Source: Aneurinibacillus thermoaerophilus
Lineage (GTDB): Bacteria; Bacillota; Bacilli; Aneurinibacillales; Aneurinibacillaceae
Length of the DNA stretch: 64,000 nt
Assembly: GCF_900099925.1 (NCBI RefSeq)
Contig: NZ_FNDE01000008.1
Location: 1 to 64,000, forward strand
Reading direction: 5' to 3'
Each line of letters begins with the position of its first letter. Positions within the stretch are counted from its first letter, which is position 1. The position numbers were made by a program, and so were the translations under genes. Positions 30,120-38,039 of this stretch are shown here, piece by piece. The notes beneath the pieces were generated by a model. It was not told where the DNA came from, searched no databases, and saw nothing but the letters and a program-made list of their open reading frames with translations.

Positions 30120-30211
30120 AGACGAAAGAGTATTCTCTCATATTATACTTCCAATAGCGCCCGATATCCCAAAGCGGAATAAGGGCGCTGTTCGTTATAC
30201 AAAGTAATATA
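30120..30211 (-). pseudogene. IS3-family transposase OrfB, C-terminal scrap
   Basis: On the minus strand the codons read YITLYNEQRPYSALGYRALLEV and then a stop. This is the conserved C-terminal end of IS3-family OrfB and matches nearly the same stretch at about 36505-36590. It is a fragment only, with no catalytic residues. Confidence 0.8.
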
Positions 30212-32110: not shown

Positions 32111-32272
32111 TTCTGTACTGGAAACCGCATAAAATCTAGGGAGGAGGGTTTCTATGTCCTATCATACAAGACCATATCCCGAATGGTCGTGGTCGCTTGC
32201 ACGCGATCAGATGTTTCACGCGTGCAAGCGGCAATACTATTATCATTATTACGGCTCTCATGGAGGCTGGTT
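32111..32272 (+). repeat. Direct repeat copy A (left boundary of the integrated element)
   Basis: 162 bases that recur at 37067-37228 with a single difference (C at 32126, T at 37082). They include the ribosome site and first 39 codons of the Cas4-like nuclease gene. The two copies are exactly 4,956 bases apart. A 22-codon frame with a GAGGGGGAG site (32064-32132) enters the repeat but has no recognisable content. Confidence 0.95.
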
Positions 32273-32297
32273 GATGAGAACGAAGCCGAGAACTTAG
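32154..32297 (+). pseudogene. Truncated 5' copy of the Cas4-like nuclease gene
   Basis: Starts MSYHTRPYPEWSWSLARDQM exactly like the intact gene at 37110, keeping AGGGAGGAGGG upstream, then leaves the homology after GGWL and stops after 8 foreign residues. It keeps the first Cys (HACKRQ) but no nuclease residues. It is the stump left by insertion or duplication. Confidence 0.92.
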
Positions 32298-32340
32298 TGA
32301 TATCAACCTTTCTAACCATTTTAAATTTTATGGTATTAGT

Positions 32341-33222
32341 TTAATTTTCGGAAGTGGTAGCATTTTTGGTAGCATATCTATCCAATACTTGACCGAAATT
32401 GTCTGCTGCTTCCGCCTGCATACTCGGTAGCACATGAGAATATGTGTCAAGGGTAAGTTGTGTGCGACTGTGTCCAAGTCGTTCTGCTACGATTTTCGGA
32501 TGTACTCCTTGTTTCAGCATGATGGTCGCATGCGTATGACGCAAATCATGAAAACGAATTTTCGGTACTTTTGCCACTTCGATCAGGTTGCGAAAACGCC
32601 TAGTAATGTTGTTCGGTTTTAGTGTTGTACAAATACTCGTCATTACGAGAGTATCATCGGGTTGTTTACCTTCTATGGCTTTTTGAAGGTCAGGGACGAT
32701 GGAAGAAGGAAAGACAACAGTTCTGGAACTTCCTGATGTTTTGGTTCCTTCTTTAAATCCTTTTCCATTGTTCAACATGATTCGGTTAATGCTAATTGTT
32801 CTGCGTTGTATATCTACATCACGCACACGCAAACCAAGTATTTCGCCCTGACGCATTCCGGTATAGATAGCGAGCAAAAATACAATATAGTATCTACTTT
32901 GTTTTGCTACGGCAAGGAAACGGATTGTTTCTTCCTCACTCCAAACATTGAATTGCTTCGCTTTTTGTTTAGGTTTTTCTACGGTATGAGCAGGATTCGT
33001 AGCCAAAAATTGTTGTTTAACAGCAGAGGTCAATGAACTGGCGCATACGCTGTGTACAAATCGTACTGTTCCTTTCCTTCTGCAAGCCCTTTTTTTCTCA
33101 TTGTTTGAATCAAATCCTGGATGTGTTGCGGTGTGATCCCATTCAACTTTAAATGACCTAGATAAGGAAGAATATGCTTTTGACCATGTTGTTTTTATAT
33201 ACATGACAATTATAAAATTCAC
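32341..33222 (-). pseudogene. Phage-type tyrosine integrase, N-terminally decayed
   Basis: The catalytic domain is intact by eye: Arg in TGMRQGEILGLR, HDLRHTHAT, LGHSRTQLTLDTYSH with the nucleophile Tyr, and a normal C-terminal tail. Upstream of about residue 80 the frame is wrong: on a neighbouring minus-strand frame (about 33085-33190) the codons read HILPYLGHLKLNGITPQHIQDLIQTMRKKGLAEG, the proper SAM-like domain, so a frameshift near 33080 splits it. The arm-binding N-terminus is missing altogether. Its 3' end lies 68 bases from repeat copy A, the expected position beside an attachment site. Confidence 0.88.
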
Positions 33223-33341
33223 TGATTATACCATATTTAAGAAATTCGCTACATTTTCATGGACGAAAGAAGCAAACTATGCGAAAAGTGAAATATTCGG
33301 GTGGGATTTTATAGATATAGCAGTAATAGGAGGTAATACAC

Positions 33342-33494
33342 ATGGAATATAAACACGAATGGACAGAAGAGGAAATGAAGGCGTGGCATTACTGGGAAAT
33401 GGAATGGCTGAAGAAAGATTTACTTAAAATGACATTGTCTGACCTGCCATCTTTGAGCGTAAGCGAAAATGGGCAAAGGTTCAGTGAACCTTAA
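33342..33494 (+). CDS. Small hypothetical protein (50 aa) in the element
   Basis: ATG with an AGGAGG site 8 bases upstream. The protein (MEYKHEWTEEEMKAWHYWEMEWLKKD...) is rich in Trp, Glu and Lys and probably one amphipathic helix. No family recognised. Confidence 0.5.
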   Translation: MEYKHEWTEEEMKAWHYWEMEWLKKDLLKMTLSDLPSLSVSENGQRFSEP

Positions 33495-33613
33495 CAAGAA
33501 TGATTTTATTAAACAAACTATTGATTTTTTCCTAAATTTGTTATATTAAAAATGTGTTAATTAACATTTTTTTCTATATATGGGAAAACAAGAAAAAAGA
33601 AAGGAGATTAATA

Positions 33614-34393
33614 ATGAAAAAAGCATTGTTTATATGTGCATTAGCATCTTTGGTGATTCCTACTGTTGTATCAGCCACTTCAACCAATTCAACATCTTTA
33701 GCCGATCCTACTATTATTGAAAGCAAATCTCATTCATCTGAAACTATTCCAGCTAGTATGGAGCCGGGTGTTGTAATAGAATATGATGAGAACAATAAAA
33801 TGCATATTGTTCACAAACCAAATTTGGAAGATTTTTATGTTGAAGTCGAAGACTTAGAGCAAGTGAAGAGTAATACAGCAAAAAACAACAACACTTTAAA
33901 ATTAGAAGACAATGCTATTGTCCCTAATTTTGAGAATGAAAAATTATTTTTACCTAAACCTCAACCGGGAATGAGAGTAGCATATGATGGTCAAGGGCTT
34001 CCTGCTTTTATTAAAGTAAATGGGGAAGTTTATTATGGAGATAATAATAAACAAATGTCGGCTCCAGTAATACGTAATCAATATGTGTATGGAAACATTA
34101 CTTGGTATGACGACGCAATTGGACAAGAGAAACATAAATTGGGGCCAAAAGATTGTGCAACAAAAAAAGGATATGATGAGCCAGACGTTGGAACACCAAT
34201 CATAGTAACAAAAACGGATGATGGGAAAACTGATACTTTAACAAAATGGGATGTAGGAACACTACCTAATGCAATTCTTGACATCAGATTAGAGGAAATG
34301 AGAGATTATTTTAACGTACCAGCAGGATATAAAACAAAAAATGGTAAGAAAATATCATATGGTAGTTTTCAAGGTAAATACATCCATAAGTAA
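33614..34393 (+). CDS. Secreted protein with a RlpA/double-psi-barrel-like C-terminus
   Basis: 259 residues. The start at 33614 follows AAAGGAGATTAATA. A classic signal peptide (MKKALFICALASLVIPTVVSA) is followed by a Ser/Thr- and Asn-rich linker. The last ~90 residues read GNITWYDDAIG, GTPIIVTK, LTKWDVGTLPNAILDIRLEEM, which resembles the double-psi beta-barrel of RlpA-like proteins (G-T-x-V-x-V, D-x-G, ILDLS). This is a pattern match only. Very AT-rich compared with the host genes; a cargo gene of the element. It pairs with the membrane-anchored protein downstream. Confidence 0.65.
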   Translation: MKKALFICALASLVIPTVVSATSTNSTSLADPTIIESKSHSSETIPASMEPGVVIEYDENNKMHIVHKPNLEDFYVEVEDLEQVKSNTAKNNNTLKLEDNAIVPNFENEKLFLPKPQPGMRVAYDGQGLPAFIKVNGEVYYGDNNKQMSAPVIRNQYVYGNITWYDDAIGQEKHKLGPKDCATKKGYDEPDVGTPIIVTKTDDGKTDTLTKWDVGTLPNAILDIRLEEMRDYFNVPAGYKTKNGKKISYGSFQGKYIHK

Positions 34394-34462
34394 TGTTTTT
34401 TATAAATGAGGGAAAGAAATCTTTCCCTCATTCTAAATTTCTTGGAAGTGAGTGATTTCGTA

Positions 34463-35479
34463 ATGAATAAACGATATATTATTCTTTTATCTATTGCTTT
34501 TCTTGTAGTTTTAATCCTATATGGAGGATATACATTATTTAAAAGAAACACATCCTTTATTGTATTTACATTTACCGATCTAAATCAGGTAACATATTAT
34601 TATAAGTATGATTTAAAAAATCAACAAACCGAACAACTTTTGGAAAGTAATATAACTACGGCACCAAGAGCTGTTTTACATAAACAAAAAAATGAGATGT
34701 ATTTTCCTTATCGTTCTTCGGATGGGAGTGTTCAATTATTCAAAAAAGATTTAAATCAAAGAAATAGTGAAAAAACTCAACTAACAAATTCATTGTATGC
34801 TATTAACAATTTTTTATTAGCAGACTCAAAAATTTTTATGAATGTTGTTAATGGAAATCATCGTAACTTACAATTAGCAACTTATGATATTGAGAAGAAA
34901 AGGCTCAATGTTTGGGATTCTAATGACACGGATAAAAATATAAGAGATTTTGATTACAGTAAAACGACTAATAAAGTATATGCAGTAGTTTATTCAAACA
35001 AAGAATTATATGATAAAATATTACAAGCTAGGTCTACAAATCCATATGTTTTAAGCCCCCCAACGTATACTATTGTTGAATATGATAGTAATGGTAATAA
35101 ATTAAGGGATATTTGTAAGATAAATAAAGGCATTGACAGAATATCTGTATCTAATCAAGGTGATACTTTATTAATTTCAGCTACCGAACAGGAGGTTGTT
35201 GGAAAGTCAGCTATTTATAAAATTGATATTGATAAAGGCTCACTAACCCCAGTTTTGGTTGAAGATAAAAACCATATGTTTCTCACTGAACCGCGTTTTT
35301 CTCCTGATAAAGAAGGGTTTTATTTTTTGGCATCTCCTAGTAATAAAACATTAAAGGATAAAGAGGGAGTGGAGGGAAGAAACAGAATGCTTTATTATTT
35401 TAATTTCAATAGTAAAAAAATAACAAAAGTTTGGGGTAAAGAAAACGGTACAATAAATCATTTTATGATTCAATACTAA
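34463..35479 (+). CDS. Membrane-anchored beta-propeller-like protein
   Basis: 338 residues. An N-terminal helix (YIILLSIAFLVVLILYGGYTLF) anchors it, with the rest probably outside. The extracellular part has repeated blades with Y-D and F-S-P-D patterns (ATYDIEKKRLNVWDS, YKIDIDKGSLTPVLVEDK, PRFSPDKEGFYFLAS), as in TolB/WD40-like six-bladed propellers. No specific family recognised. It lies 69 bases after the secreted protein and may be cotranscribed. AT-rich cargo. Confidence 0.6.
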   Translation: MNKRYIILLSIAFLVVLILYGGYTLFKRNTSFIVFTFTDLNQVTYYYKYDLKNQQTEQLLESNITTAPRAVLHKQKNEMYFPYRSSDGSVQLFKKDLNQRNSEKTQLTNSLYAINNFLLADSKIFMNVVNGNHRNLQLATYDIEKKRLNVWDSNDTDKNIRDFDYSKTTNKVYAVVYSNKELYDKILQARSTNPYVLSPPTYTIVEYDSNGNKLRDICKINKGIDRISVSNQGDTLLISATEQEVVGKSAIYKIDIDKGSLTPVLVEDKNHMFLTEPRFSPDKEGFYFLASPSNKTLKDKEGVEGRNRMLYYFNFNSKKITKVWGKENGTINHFMIQY

Positions 35480-35743
35480 AAACCTTTTAAATAAAAATCG
35501 TTAAAATTGCATACACTCATTTAAAAACATGGGTTGTTAAGGGGTTTATAATTATTTTATAATATTTTTGATATTCAAGATGTAATTTATGATGGAGAGT
35601 TGGTGAACTACTACTAACTCTTTCTTTTTTATTTTAGGAGTAACTTTAAATCAGTTTTATAGCGCCCCAATCTAAAATGCGATGATGAGATGTGTAGAGG
35701 TCTCCCTTCTGATACAATTATAGTTAACAGGAGGGAACGGAAC

Positions 35744-36031
35744 ATGAAACGTCGCAAATGGTCAGCAGAGGAGAAAATGAATATTGTGATGGAGGGGCTA
35801 AAGTGGGAACAATCCATCGCCGAGATTTGCCGACAACATAACATTAGCCAGACTCTGTATTACCGTTGGAAAGATGAGTTCATCCAAGGAGGAATGGCTG
35901 CCCTTTCGGGTAAACAACGTAAGACAGCAAAAGAAGACGCTGCCGTTCAAGCAAAGTTGGACGAGTATGAGCAACTTATTGGCAAGTTGACTGTAAAACT
36001 TTCAAAGCTAAAAAAAACGTTCGACATCTGA
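35744..36031 (+). CDS. IS3-family transposase OrfA
   Basis: 95 residues with the helix-turn-helix MKRRKWSAEEKMNIVMEGL, IAEICRQHNISQTLYYRWKDEF, then a leucine-zipper-like helix. The start is fixed by CAGGAGGGAACGGAAC upstream. Eight A residues at 36010-36017 are the likely site of programmed -1 frameshifting into OrfB, where the codons continue VRHLSEEHWAFIFEVVEDS. Confidence 0.85.
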   Translation: MKRRKWSAEEKMNIVMEGLKWEQSIAEICRQHNISQTLYYRWKDEFIQGGMAALSGKQRKTAKEDAAVQAKLDEYEQLIGKLTVKLSKLKKTFDI

Positions 36032-36598
36032 GTGAAGAGCACTGGGCATTTATCTTTGAGGTAGTGGAAGATTCCCACCTGTCGGTGGAAAAAGTATGCC
36101 GTCTTCTTGGTGTGCACAAAAGTACGTTTTACCGTCAAAAAGCAAAGGCAACTTTCGTGCGACCGAAACAGGCAGTGATTCAAGAGAAAGTGCGTGTTCT
36201 TTGTCAACAGCATCCTACCTACGGATATCGTAGAATTTGGGCTTTACTAAAGCGCCAGGGAATCGAAGTCAATCAGAAAACCGTTTACTCTGTGATGAAA
36301 GCCGAAGGCTTAACACAAAAGCAAAAGCGATATGAAGCCAAGCGCACATATCAGCCTGTCGATTTTCAAATCAACTCCTCCAATTAAGTTTGGCATATTG
36401 ACATGACGAAGATTTGGACAAGTGAGGGATGGAAGTCTCTTGTCAGCATCATCGATGCCTATGACCGTCGTATTGTAGCCTGGAGTCTCGACCGGCACTT
36501 ATATTACCTTGTATAACGAACAGCGCCCTCATTCCGCTTTGGGATATTGGGTGCCATTGGAAGTATATATGGGAGAATACTCTACAAAAGCTGCTTGA
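36031..36598 (+). pseudogene. IS3-family transposase OrfB, frameshifted and internally deleted
   Basis: The N-terminal part is normal (SVEKVCRLLGVHKSTFYRQK, HPTYGYRRIWALLKRQG). A frameshift near 36386 interrupts it just before the integrase core; in another frame WHIDMTKIWTSEGW with the first catalytic Asp, and SIIDAYDRRIVAWSL, follow. At about 36500 the sequence jumps to the C-terminal NEQRPHSALGYWVPLEVYMGEYSTKAA, removing the later catalytic Asp and Glu. The element is dead. Confidence 0.85.
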
Positions 36599-36613
36599 TT
36601 TTCGTCGCTTTTT

Positions 36614-36805
36614 GAGGGTAGCATTACAATTCGTAATGAAGACGGTACAAGTACACCTTATGCGACTATTCAAAGCCAAACAGGTAATAGTTGTACAGTA
36701 CAAGCAGGTAGTACAGTCGGAAAATATGTACTTCTAAAAGCGACATTTGTAGATGACTTGAATGTATATACTGAAAAACGGATACTGATTAAGTCGATAT
36801 TTTAA
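36614..36805 (+). pseudogene. C-terminal scrap of an unidentified beta-rich protein
   Basis: An open frame without a start directly behind the IS relic: EGSITIRNEDGTSTPYATIQ and so on to KRILIKSIF-stop. Alternating polar/hydrophobic pattern suggests a beta-sandwich (Ig-like or phage-tail-like). It is followed by a good terminator, so it is the genuine 3' end of a gene otherwise lost. Confidence 0.55.
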
Positions 36806-36810
36806 AATTT

Positions 36811-36843
36811 AACCTGCTCGGAGTTAAGTTCTGAGCAGGTTTT
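36811..36843 (+). terminator. Terminator after the beta-rich scrap
   Basis: AACCTGCTC, 13-base loop, GAGCAGGTT followed by TTATT. Confidence 0.8.
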
Positions 36844-36944
36844 ATTGTTGCACTATTTTTAGTTAGTGCAGAATTTTGTTATTATTAAACATACCAAGTA
36901 ATGGTTGCATCTGTGATTAAAAATGATGATTAACCGCCCGTATT

Positions 36945-36976
36945 TTTTGGTAGCATTTTGGTAGCATTTCATCAAA
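36945..36976 (-). other. Possible second integrase 3'-end scrap
   Basis: Two copies of TTTTGGTAGCAT in tandem, as at the integrase 3' end near 32352-32374. On the minus strand they code Asn-Ala-Thr-type repeats typical of integrase tails. It lies about 90 bases left of repeat copy B. Confidence 0.4.
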
Positions 36977-37066
36977 ACAAAAATACTTATTCTTGAATTA
37001 TGCTGTATTTCACTTACTTTTTAGAAGTATACTTTCGTTAGCTTGATAAAAATAAAAACAAACAAC

Positions 37067-37228
37067 TTCTGTACTGGAAACTGCATAAAATCTAGGGAGG
37101 AGGGTTTCTATGTCCTATCATACAAGACCATATCCCGAATGGTCGTGGTCGCTTGCACGCGATCAGATGTTTCACGCGTGCAAGCGGCAATACTATTATC
37201 ATTATTACGGCTCTCATGGAGGCTGGTT
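37067..37228 (+). repeat. Direct repeat copy B (right boundary of the integrated element)
   Basis: Matches 32111-32272 at 161 of 162 bases. It contains the ribosome site and 5' end of the intact nuclease gene. The repeat ends abruptly inside a codon shared by both copies (GGCTGGTT). Confidence 0.95.
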
Positions 37229-38039
37229 ATTAACAGCTACACCTGAAGCACAGACAGCCTATCGTTTGAAACAAATGAAAAATTTATACATTGTGCTTGG
37301 AGACGCTATACATACAGTTGCACAGAAACTATTGGAGCTGCGTGAGATGGGAAAACCTTACCCAAAGCAAGAACAGGTTATTTCATATATACGTAATCTA
37401 TTAAACGCGGCTTATCGTGATTCAAAACAGAAAGACCGATGGTGGGGATACCCCAAGCAATATACGATGCTTCATGAAATGTATTACGAAGGGGGGCTTT
37501 CGCCCGAACGCATCGAGGTGATCGCCAACCGAATCACCACATGTGTGTCCAATTTGTTAGCAAGCACAAGCTGGCGTGAGATTCGCGATAACCCGGATGT
37601 TACACTACTGGAAGTGGAAACGCTTAAAGATTTTATTTTTCATGATGAAAAAATTTATGTAAAACTCGACGTATTATACCGACGCGGTGACGGAACATGG
37701 GTGATTACCGATTGGAAAACAGGCAGGATAGCGGAAAAAAATGAGGAACAATTACGATTATACGCGCTGTACATTCATGAATACTACAGTGTACCGCTTA
37801 CACACATTGAAGTACGAACCGAATATTTATTAGATGGCATATGCACCCGTACCCATCCTGATGTGGAAGATATCGAAAGAATCGTGCATAAAATCCGAGC
37901 CAGTTTGAACAGTATGAAAAGCTACCTGGCAGACTCATACTACAACCGGCCTCTTCCGCTTGAACAGTTTGCCGGAGCAGGGCATCCTTCCGTCTGTAAA
38001 TCTTGCAATTTCCGCCAGATTTGTTCAGAAAAACAATAG
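37110..38039 (+). CDS. Cas4-like / RecB-type PD-(D/E)XK nuclease with an iron-sulfur cluster
   Basis: 309 residues. The nuclease core is visible: His in LGDAIHTV, Asp in VKLDVLYRR, and DWKTG, the motifs H-D-(D/E)xK of the PDDEXK_1 family. Four cysteines placed as in Cas4/AddB [4Fe-4S] nucleases: HACKRQYYY near the start and CKSCNFRQIC at the end. No cas genes are present, so a repair or processing role is more likely than adaptation. The ribosome site AGGGAGGAGGG lies inside repeat copy B; transcription now starts from DNA delivered by the element. Confidence 0.9.
   Translation: MSYHTRPYPEWSWSLARDQMFHACKRQYYYHYYGSHGGWLLTATPEAQTAYRLKQMKNLYIVLGDAIHTVAQKLLELREMGKPYPKQEQVISYIRNLLNAAYRDSKQKDRWWGYPKQYTMLHEMYYEGGLSPERIEVIANRITTCVSNLLASTSWREIRDNPDVTLLEVETLKDFIFHDEKIYVKLDVLYRRGDGTWVITDWKTGRIAEKNEEQLRLYALYIHEYYSVPLTHIEVRTEYLLDGICTRTHPDVEDIERIVHKIRASLNSMKSYLADSYYNRPLPLEQFAGAGHPSVCKSCNFRQICSEKQ

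Follow-up and report, generated by a model that had tools for sequence, protein, structure and literature searches.

The stretch of Aneurinibacillus thermoaerophilus DNA analyzed here (the window; 64,000 nucleotides, positions 1 to 64,000 of contig NZ_FNDE01000008.1, assembly GCF_900099925.1) carries a PD-(D/E)XK nuclease gene whose first part is present twice. Between the two copies of this gene head lies what appears to be the remnant of an integrative element, including a damaged tyrosine integrase gene. The features that define the locus are as follows.

32111–32272, + strand: left 162-bp copy, read as the left attachment site (attL); nuclease leader, ribosome-binding site and codons 1–39
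37067–37228, + strand: right 162-bp copy, read as the right attachment site (attR); opens the intact nuclease gene
37110–38039, + strand: PD-(D/E)XK (Cas4/RecB-like) nuclease gene of 309 amino acids, complete at the right end (PF12705, PADLOC)
32341–33222, − strand: remains of a tyrosine integrase gene; in-frame catalytic part at about 32362–33069, with a piece in another frame at about 33081–33182

Two copies of a nuclease gene head bracket a damaged integrase

A repeat search of the window recovers the two copies as one long direct-repeat family with a start-to-start spacing of 4,956 bp, and a base-by-base comparison finds 161 of 162 bases shared, the sole mismatch (C versus T) being at position 32126. 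The 4,794 bp between the copies hold the truncated integrase gene, two intact-looking cargo genes and relics of the IS3 family of insertion sequences (IS), which agrees with the original prediction of near-identical 162-bp direct repeats around an integrase, cargo and IS relics. The 3.66-Mb genome to which the window belongs contains no third copy (the second copy is matched at an expectation value, E, of 1.8e-79), and the repeat is absent from the phages and plasmids that were searched.

At the right end, the complete frame matches PF12705 (PDDEXK_1; E 1.8e-15), and its best PADLOC matches are Cas4-like nucleases (E 3.6e-19), such that the Cas4-like label given earlier is a fair one; no relative was found among solved structures at E 0.01. 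At the left end, the frame has 39 codons in common with the nuclease and then runs through eight more to a stop codon (47 in total). Thus, the frames bear out the earlier view that the left copy is a 39-codon stump of the gene whereas the right copy is the start of the intact gene. The single base that differs between the copies is noncoding, and therefore either copy, as the source of the head, gives an identical host protein. In four of seven orthologues fetched for this family, third codon positions are 49–56% identical within codons 1–39 and 39–45% identical in the remainder of the gene. This codon comparison gives no sign that the head is of foreign origin, although the test is weak given that the head is also the more conserved part.

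The integrase retains a recognizable catalytic domain (PF00589, E 2e-25; phrog_1, E 9.5e-56), as had been proposed, but it is more damaged than was originally stated. Alignment with related integrases indicates that residues 1 to about 93 are missing and that the frame is broken at least once. The catalytic frame is kept from about residue 128 onward, and residues 94–127 or so lie in another frame (6 of 10 queries). By sequence comparison, no close relative of this integrase was found across class genomes, phages, plasmids or viral contigs. Only six of the 398 genomes of the class, the source genome included, pass a threshold of E 1e-60, and the others are 44–49% identical. All 2,495 phage records fall below 60% identity, four of the 838 plasmid records have an integrase place at 60–80% identity (none of the four is among the 25 matches listed, the best of which is 47% identical), and homologues on viral contigs reach at most 40% (best 80 loci). 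Within the source genome, short relics of the integrase are 53–67% identical over 63–90 residues, and long frames of the same family are present on contigs C74 and C59 (380 and 383 amino acids). The family has seven further matches in this genome, several of them partial, on contigs C74, C59, C8, C95 (twice), C84 and C33.

Each repeat has a rare tandem unit pair on its inner side

The strongest added evidence that the repeats are the ends of an element is a tandem pair of GGTAGCAT units located just inside each of them.

32355–32375, + strand: TGGTAGCAT tandem pair with a 12-bp period, left end; overlap with the integrase gene at its 3′ end
36948–36967, + strand: TGGTAGCAT tandem pair with an 11-bp period, right end; just inside the right repeat

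Across the 3.66-Mb genome, the pattern GGTAGCATN{2,5}GGTAGCA has exactly two matches, which lie on the + strand just inward of the two repeats, and its reversed control has none. When the pattern is restricted to a form ending in T, matches occur in two of the 398 class genomes, namely the source genome (two sites) and genome G224 (one site). The reversed control of this form gives a single match in each of three genomes (G007, G103 and G190) of the same set. Because this background amounts to about one single site per hundred genomes, two such sites at the ends of one element are not due to chance. Scanning the window for the pair with mismatches allowed gave one match against 0.35 expected, which is uninformative because the fixed spacing used could not match the right-hand pair. 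The pair pattern also occurs in 17 stretches of viral contigs, and the sequence fetched around these stretches and around the G224 site (L178) contains no integrase homologue at E 1e-4.

The same arrangement recurs in related elements. On the integrase side, all six of those with a measurable repeat have a tandem pair of their own sequence, with an 11- to 12-bp period, just inward of the end. On the opposite side, four of the six have such a pair (11–12 bp), G061 has two units separated by 27 bp, and G010b has a single unit. Exact units are absent from the remainder of each of the six elements. Integrases of the lambda type bind arm sites through their N-terminal domain, and the unit pairs are probably the arm sites of this integrase. 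If the pairs are read in this way, the two 162-bp copies are best read as attL and attR. Rare tandem unit pairs inside both repeats might serve as a sequence test by which attachment-site repeats are told from accidental duplications in decayed elements.

An inverted repeat is a candidate crossover core

Each 162-bp copy includes a perfect inverted repeat that could mark the site of strand exchange.

32194–32230, no strand: inverted repeat with 12-bp arms and a 13-bp spacer, left copy; candidate crossover core
37150–37186, no strand: the same 12-13-12 inverted repeat, right copy; candidate crossover core

All 12 positions of the arms are paired here, versus 4 to 8 of 12 in each of the seven orthologues. 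Other perfect 12-bp inverted repeats with spacers of 0–20 nucleotides are found at five places in the window, a rate that makes one within any given 162 bp roughly a 1% event, and for this reason the feature is suggestive only. An exact 31-bp form of the inverted-repeat pattern is absent from viral contigs. In five related elements that target tRNA genes, the anticodon loop lies 102–138 bp from the left pair and 100–131 bp from the right pair. The distance here from the inverted repeat to the left pair, 143 bp, is near the first of these ranges. We put the chance that the inverted repeat is the crossover core at about even odds; the crossover itself would lie within the 162-bp repeat.

A probable integrative-element remnant near the start of the gene

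The explanation we favor, with a probability of roughly 80%, is that the locus holds the remnant of an integrative element (a prophage or genomic island) that inserted into the first part of the nuclease gene, and whose own attachment site (attP) carried a copy of the gene head. According to this proposal, a lambda-type tyrosine integrase would have recombined attP with a bacterial site (attB) located early in the host gene. The attP site would have held a 162-bp copy of the leader, the ribosome-binding site and the first 39 codons between two pairs of arm sites. After integration, the integrase would have had a stump as its neighbor (attL), with the whole nuclease frame restored at the opposite end (attR); part of the right-hand gene head presumably arrived with the element. 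Later, the N-terminal part of the integrase would have been lost, and IS3-family DNA gained and then lost, this order of the decay steps being a plausible one. Because the integrase has lost its N-terminal part and IS3-family DNA has been taken in and lost, the element probably can no longer excise by itself.

The evidence for this reading comes from sequence: near-identical copies, one of them a stump and the other heading an intact gene, rare unit pairs at both ends, a damaged integrase, and no second head in other genomes that have the gene. On the last point, a search of 61 genomes, the source genome included, found 10 others that carry the nuclease gene, and in all 10 it is single and without a second head. 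Empty sites would be expected to resemble such single-headed genes. The unit pairs at both ends and the absence of a second head in these 10 genomes support the earlier claim that a decayed element occupies the 5′ part of the nuclease gene and that the reading frame was restored.

Related integrases favor 3′ ends

We inspected 13 related integrases, comprising 10 of the 23 further matches listed and all three new ones from the class search. Five lie at the 3′ ends of tRNA genes and are flanked by repeats, five adjoin the 3′ ends of protein genes, and three (G004, G118 and G005c) were left unplaced, with no target gene assignable. Genes for tRNAs were called with ARAGORN for G061 and G047 and by eye for G001, G010a and G010b. 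The 3′-end placement of G006, G005a, G005b, G000C59 and G000C74 is by adjacency only, with no attachment-site repeat identified, and the names of the protein genes at the targets (mutL, RNase J, Fur-like and others) were read from translations. The ends of G004 comprise several overlapping repeat pieces, of which a 60-bp piece (97%) was used. The elements in Bacilli that target tRNA genes (G061, G047, G001 and, twice, G010) resemble the one described here in having a homologous integrase, unit pairs near the ends and an integrase gene whose 3′ end faces the attachment site. They differ in having tRNA 3′ ends as targets, repeats of 51–128 bp and arm-to-arm distances of 220–262 bp. In addition, several related elements (L072, L075, L077 and L060) have, by eye, a CCTTGATATATAAGG-like inverted motif between the end of the target gene and the integrase, which is possibly a terminator borne by the element.

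Several observations weigh against the integrative-element reading. The first is that all 10 of the related integrases that can be placed lie at 3′ ends. Second, the geometry of the ends departs from that of the relatives: the inverted repeat is 201 bp from the right arm pair, versus 100–131 bp in the five tRNA-targeting elements, and the implied distance between arms in attP is 344 bp, versus 178–262 bp in six relatives. Third, the set used for the empty-site comparison comprised relatives and no member of the same species without the element. The proteins of the left flank (20–32 kb) have no match in the stretches fetched around the nuclease gene of seven of seven relatives, and the PF01861 gene located to the left of the stump is about 1.4 Mb from the nuclease gene or on another contig, as seen in the two genomes that have it among the six others of the genus. 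Fourth, a consensus scan finds no + strand promoter matching at least 9 of 12 positions between the right-hand terminators and the start of the rebuilt gene.

The left junction and the promoter deserve further comment. The genes upstream of the nuclease vary among species, and the left-flank proteins were not found beside it in the seven relatives, so that the native left junction is a putative one. Two terminator-like hairpins precede the right copy. However, the left leader likewise has no consensus promoter close upstream of the stump, and the promoter scan therefore says little; the rebuilt nuclease gene may well still be expressed. Separately, three loci from the same genus (L016, L017 and L018) have in common, by eye, a sequence ahead of the nuclease gene that ends with TTTGTATTATACT and is probably its promoter; this sequence was not recognized by eye in the window.

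Elements known to enter the 5′ ends of genes

A 5′-end target in a protein gene was originally described as unusual for tyrosine integrases. This does not hold in general, given the precedents of dusA islands, SXT and SpyCI, and it stands only among the relatives that could be placed: 10 of the 13 inspected are at 3′ ends and three are unplaced, which makes a 5′ target unusual for this branch of integrases. Published accounts describe dusA islands that put a new 5′ end on their target gene in place of its own and have 21-bp semiconserved sites on either side (PMC4482086), and the dusA 5′-end element IMEVchUSA3, which alters the N-terminus of the product (PMC8409611). As described there, these elements share with the one reported here a tyrosine integrase, the removal of the native 5′ end, the supply of a new one and a restored frame. 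They differ in the gene and the host phylum, and in that the copies here agree at 161 of 162 bp and leave the first 39 codons unchanged. The target here is a PF12705 nuclease gene, which places the element outside the dusA family. SXT, as described in the report on IMEVchUSA3, likewise has a 5′-end target, in prfC, where it supplies a new promoter and N-terminus (PMC8409611). Unlike the remnant in the window, which has neither conjugation genes nor altered codons, SXT is conjugative and changes the N-terminus. A further case is SpyCI of Streptococcus pyogenes, which enters the 5′ end of mutL in a Gram-positive host but works as a growth-phase switch on an operon (PMC3430984). Its variant SpyCIM5 has a deletion in the integrase gene and does not self-excise (PMC3430984), and its integrase is thus likewise damaged.

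The layout at the Aneurinibacillus locus, with a stump at the left and a complete 309-amino-acid frame at the right, is that of a 5′-end gene-replacing element. Among the matches listed from the literature on Aneurinibacillus prophages, judged by title, none concerns this insertion site. Insertion at a 5′ end is a known mode and the nuclease gene is, as far as our searches went, a new target, which adds a PD-(D/E)XK nuclease gene, in Aneurinibacillus, to those used by elements that replace 5′ ends. As to how such a target was acquired, attP may have taken up a long, near-perfect copy of the target head that extends to either side of a palindromic core. Insertion by site-specific or homologous recombination would then have left the host protein unchanged, and the 3′-end habit of the relatives would have given way to a silent 5′-end target. 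We offer this only as a tentative and, taken as a whole, unlikely scenario. A full-length relative, if found, would show how an integrase from a 3′-end branch acquired a 5′-end target while the host protein stayed as it was.

Alternative explanations for the near-identical copies

The length and identity of the repeat had been considered unusual, with recent gene conversion or a carried gene head suggested as a cause. The repeat is indeed the longest among the seven elements measured, the others being 51–128 bp. One possibility, compatible with an integrated element, is that gene conversion after integration made the copies uniform, in which case their near-identity would reflect repair and not recent insertion. 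Several decay steps have occurred within the element, and yet the copies agree at 161 of 162 bases, where a stump would be expected to drift freely. However, one difference in 162 corresponds to a 95% interval of 0.016–3.4% divergence, the upper end of which leaves enough room for deletion and IS decay, and such events can be fast. Gene conversion is therefore not required by the near-identity of the copies, nor can it extend a repeat past the homology that already exists. We consider it possible but on balance doubtful.

Somewhat less probable is a scenario in which an already decayed element was inserted recently in trans by a related integrase, giving fresh ends around worn genes. Passive elements of this kind have been termed CIMEs. 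Such an event would account for near-identical ends together with a worn integrase and for the intact state of both unit pairs, and the source genome does encode the other long integrase-family frames on contigs C74 and C59. A present-day helper is not visible, however, because the GGTAGCA pair occurs nowhere else in the assembly, and we regard this route as rather improbable.

We also weighed an ordinary duplication, or the capture of a gene fragment through homologous recombination, with the integrase remnant located there by accident. The length of the repeat (162 versus 51–128 bp), an arm-to-arm distance larger than in the six measured relatives and a left flank that is not syntenic in relatives all fit such an origin. 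An accident does not predict unit pairs that are unique in the genome, lie inside both repeats and are laid out as in related elements, and this makes the explanation very unlikely. Finally, although the draft assembly is split into 103 contigs, duplication of a 162-bp segment by a short-read assembler is highly improbable, as the copies differ at one base, their flanks differ and the position is well inside a 109,551-bp contig.

Cargo genes and insertion sequence relics

The remaining features of the element lie between the integrase and the right-hand unit pair.

33554–34393, + strand: cargo gene 1, 279 amino acids from a GTG codon; likelier start at ATG 33617 (258 amino acids)
34406–35479, + strand: cargo gene 2, 357 amino acids; membrane-anchor-like N-terminal stretch, by eye
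35690–36598, + strand: IS3-family transposase relic; orfA-like at 35690–36031, broken orfB-like at 36064–36387
36599–36805, + strand: 3′ part of a further protein gene (68 codons remaining); upstream part cut at the IS relic

Both cargo frames look intact, and the product of cargo gene 1 has, by eye, a signal-peptide-like N-terminus. Neither gene matches a Pfam, NCBIfam or PHROG family. Cargo gene 1 is matched in 17 of the 398 class genomes, the source genome included, with many of these matches being partial. Homologues of the two cargo genes (32% and 22% identity) are adjacent on the Paenibacillus polymyxa plasmid NZ_CP133769.1, where they sit beside a divergently oriented gene of the sigma-70 family.

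The stretch 36602–36805 has no PHROG match. Additional orfB fragments follow position 36387 of the IS3-family relic, as judged by eye from the translation. About 2 kb to the left of the element, on the opposite strand, a stretch of about 85 bp (30127–30211) is 92% identical to part of this relic (approximately 36500–36583).

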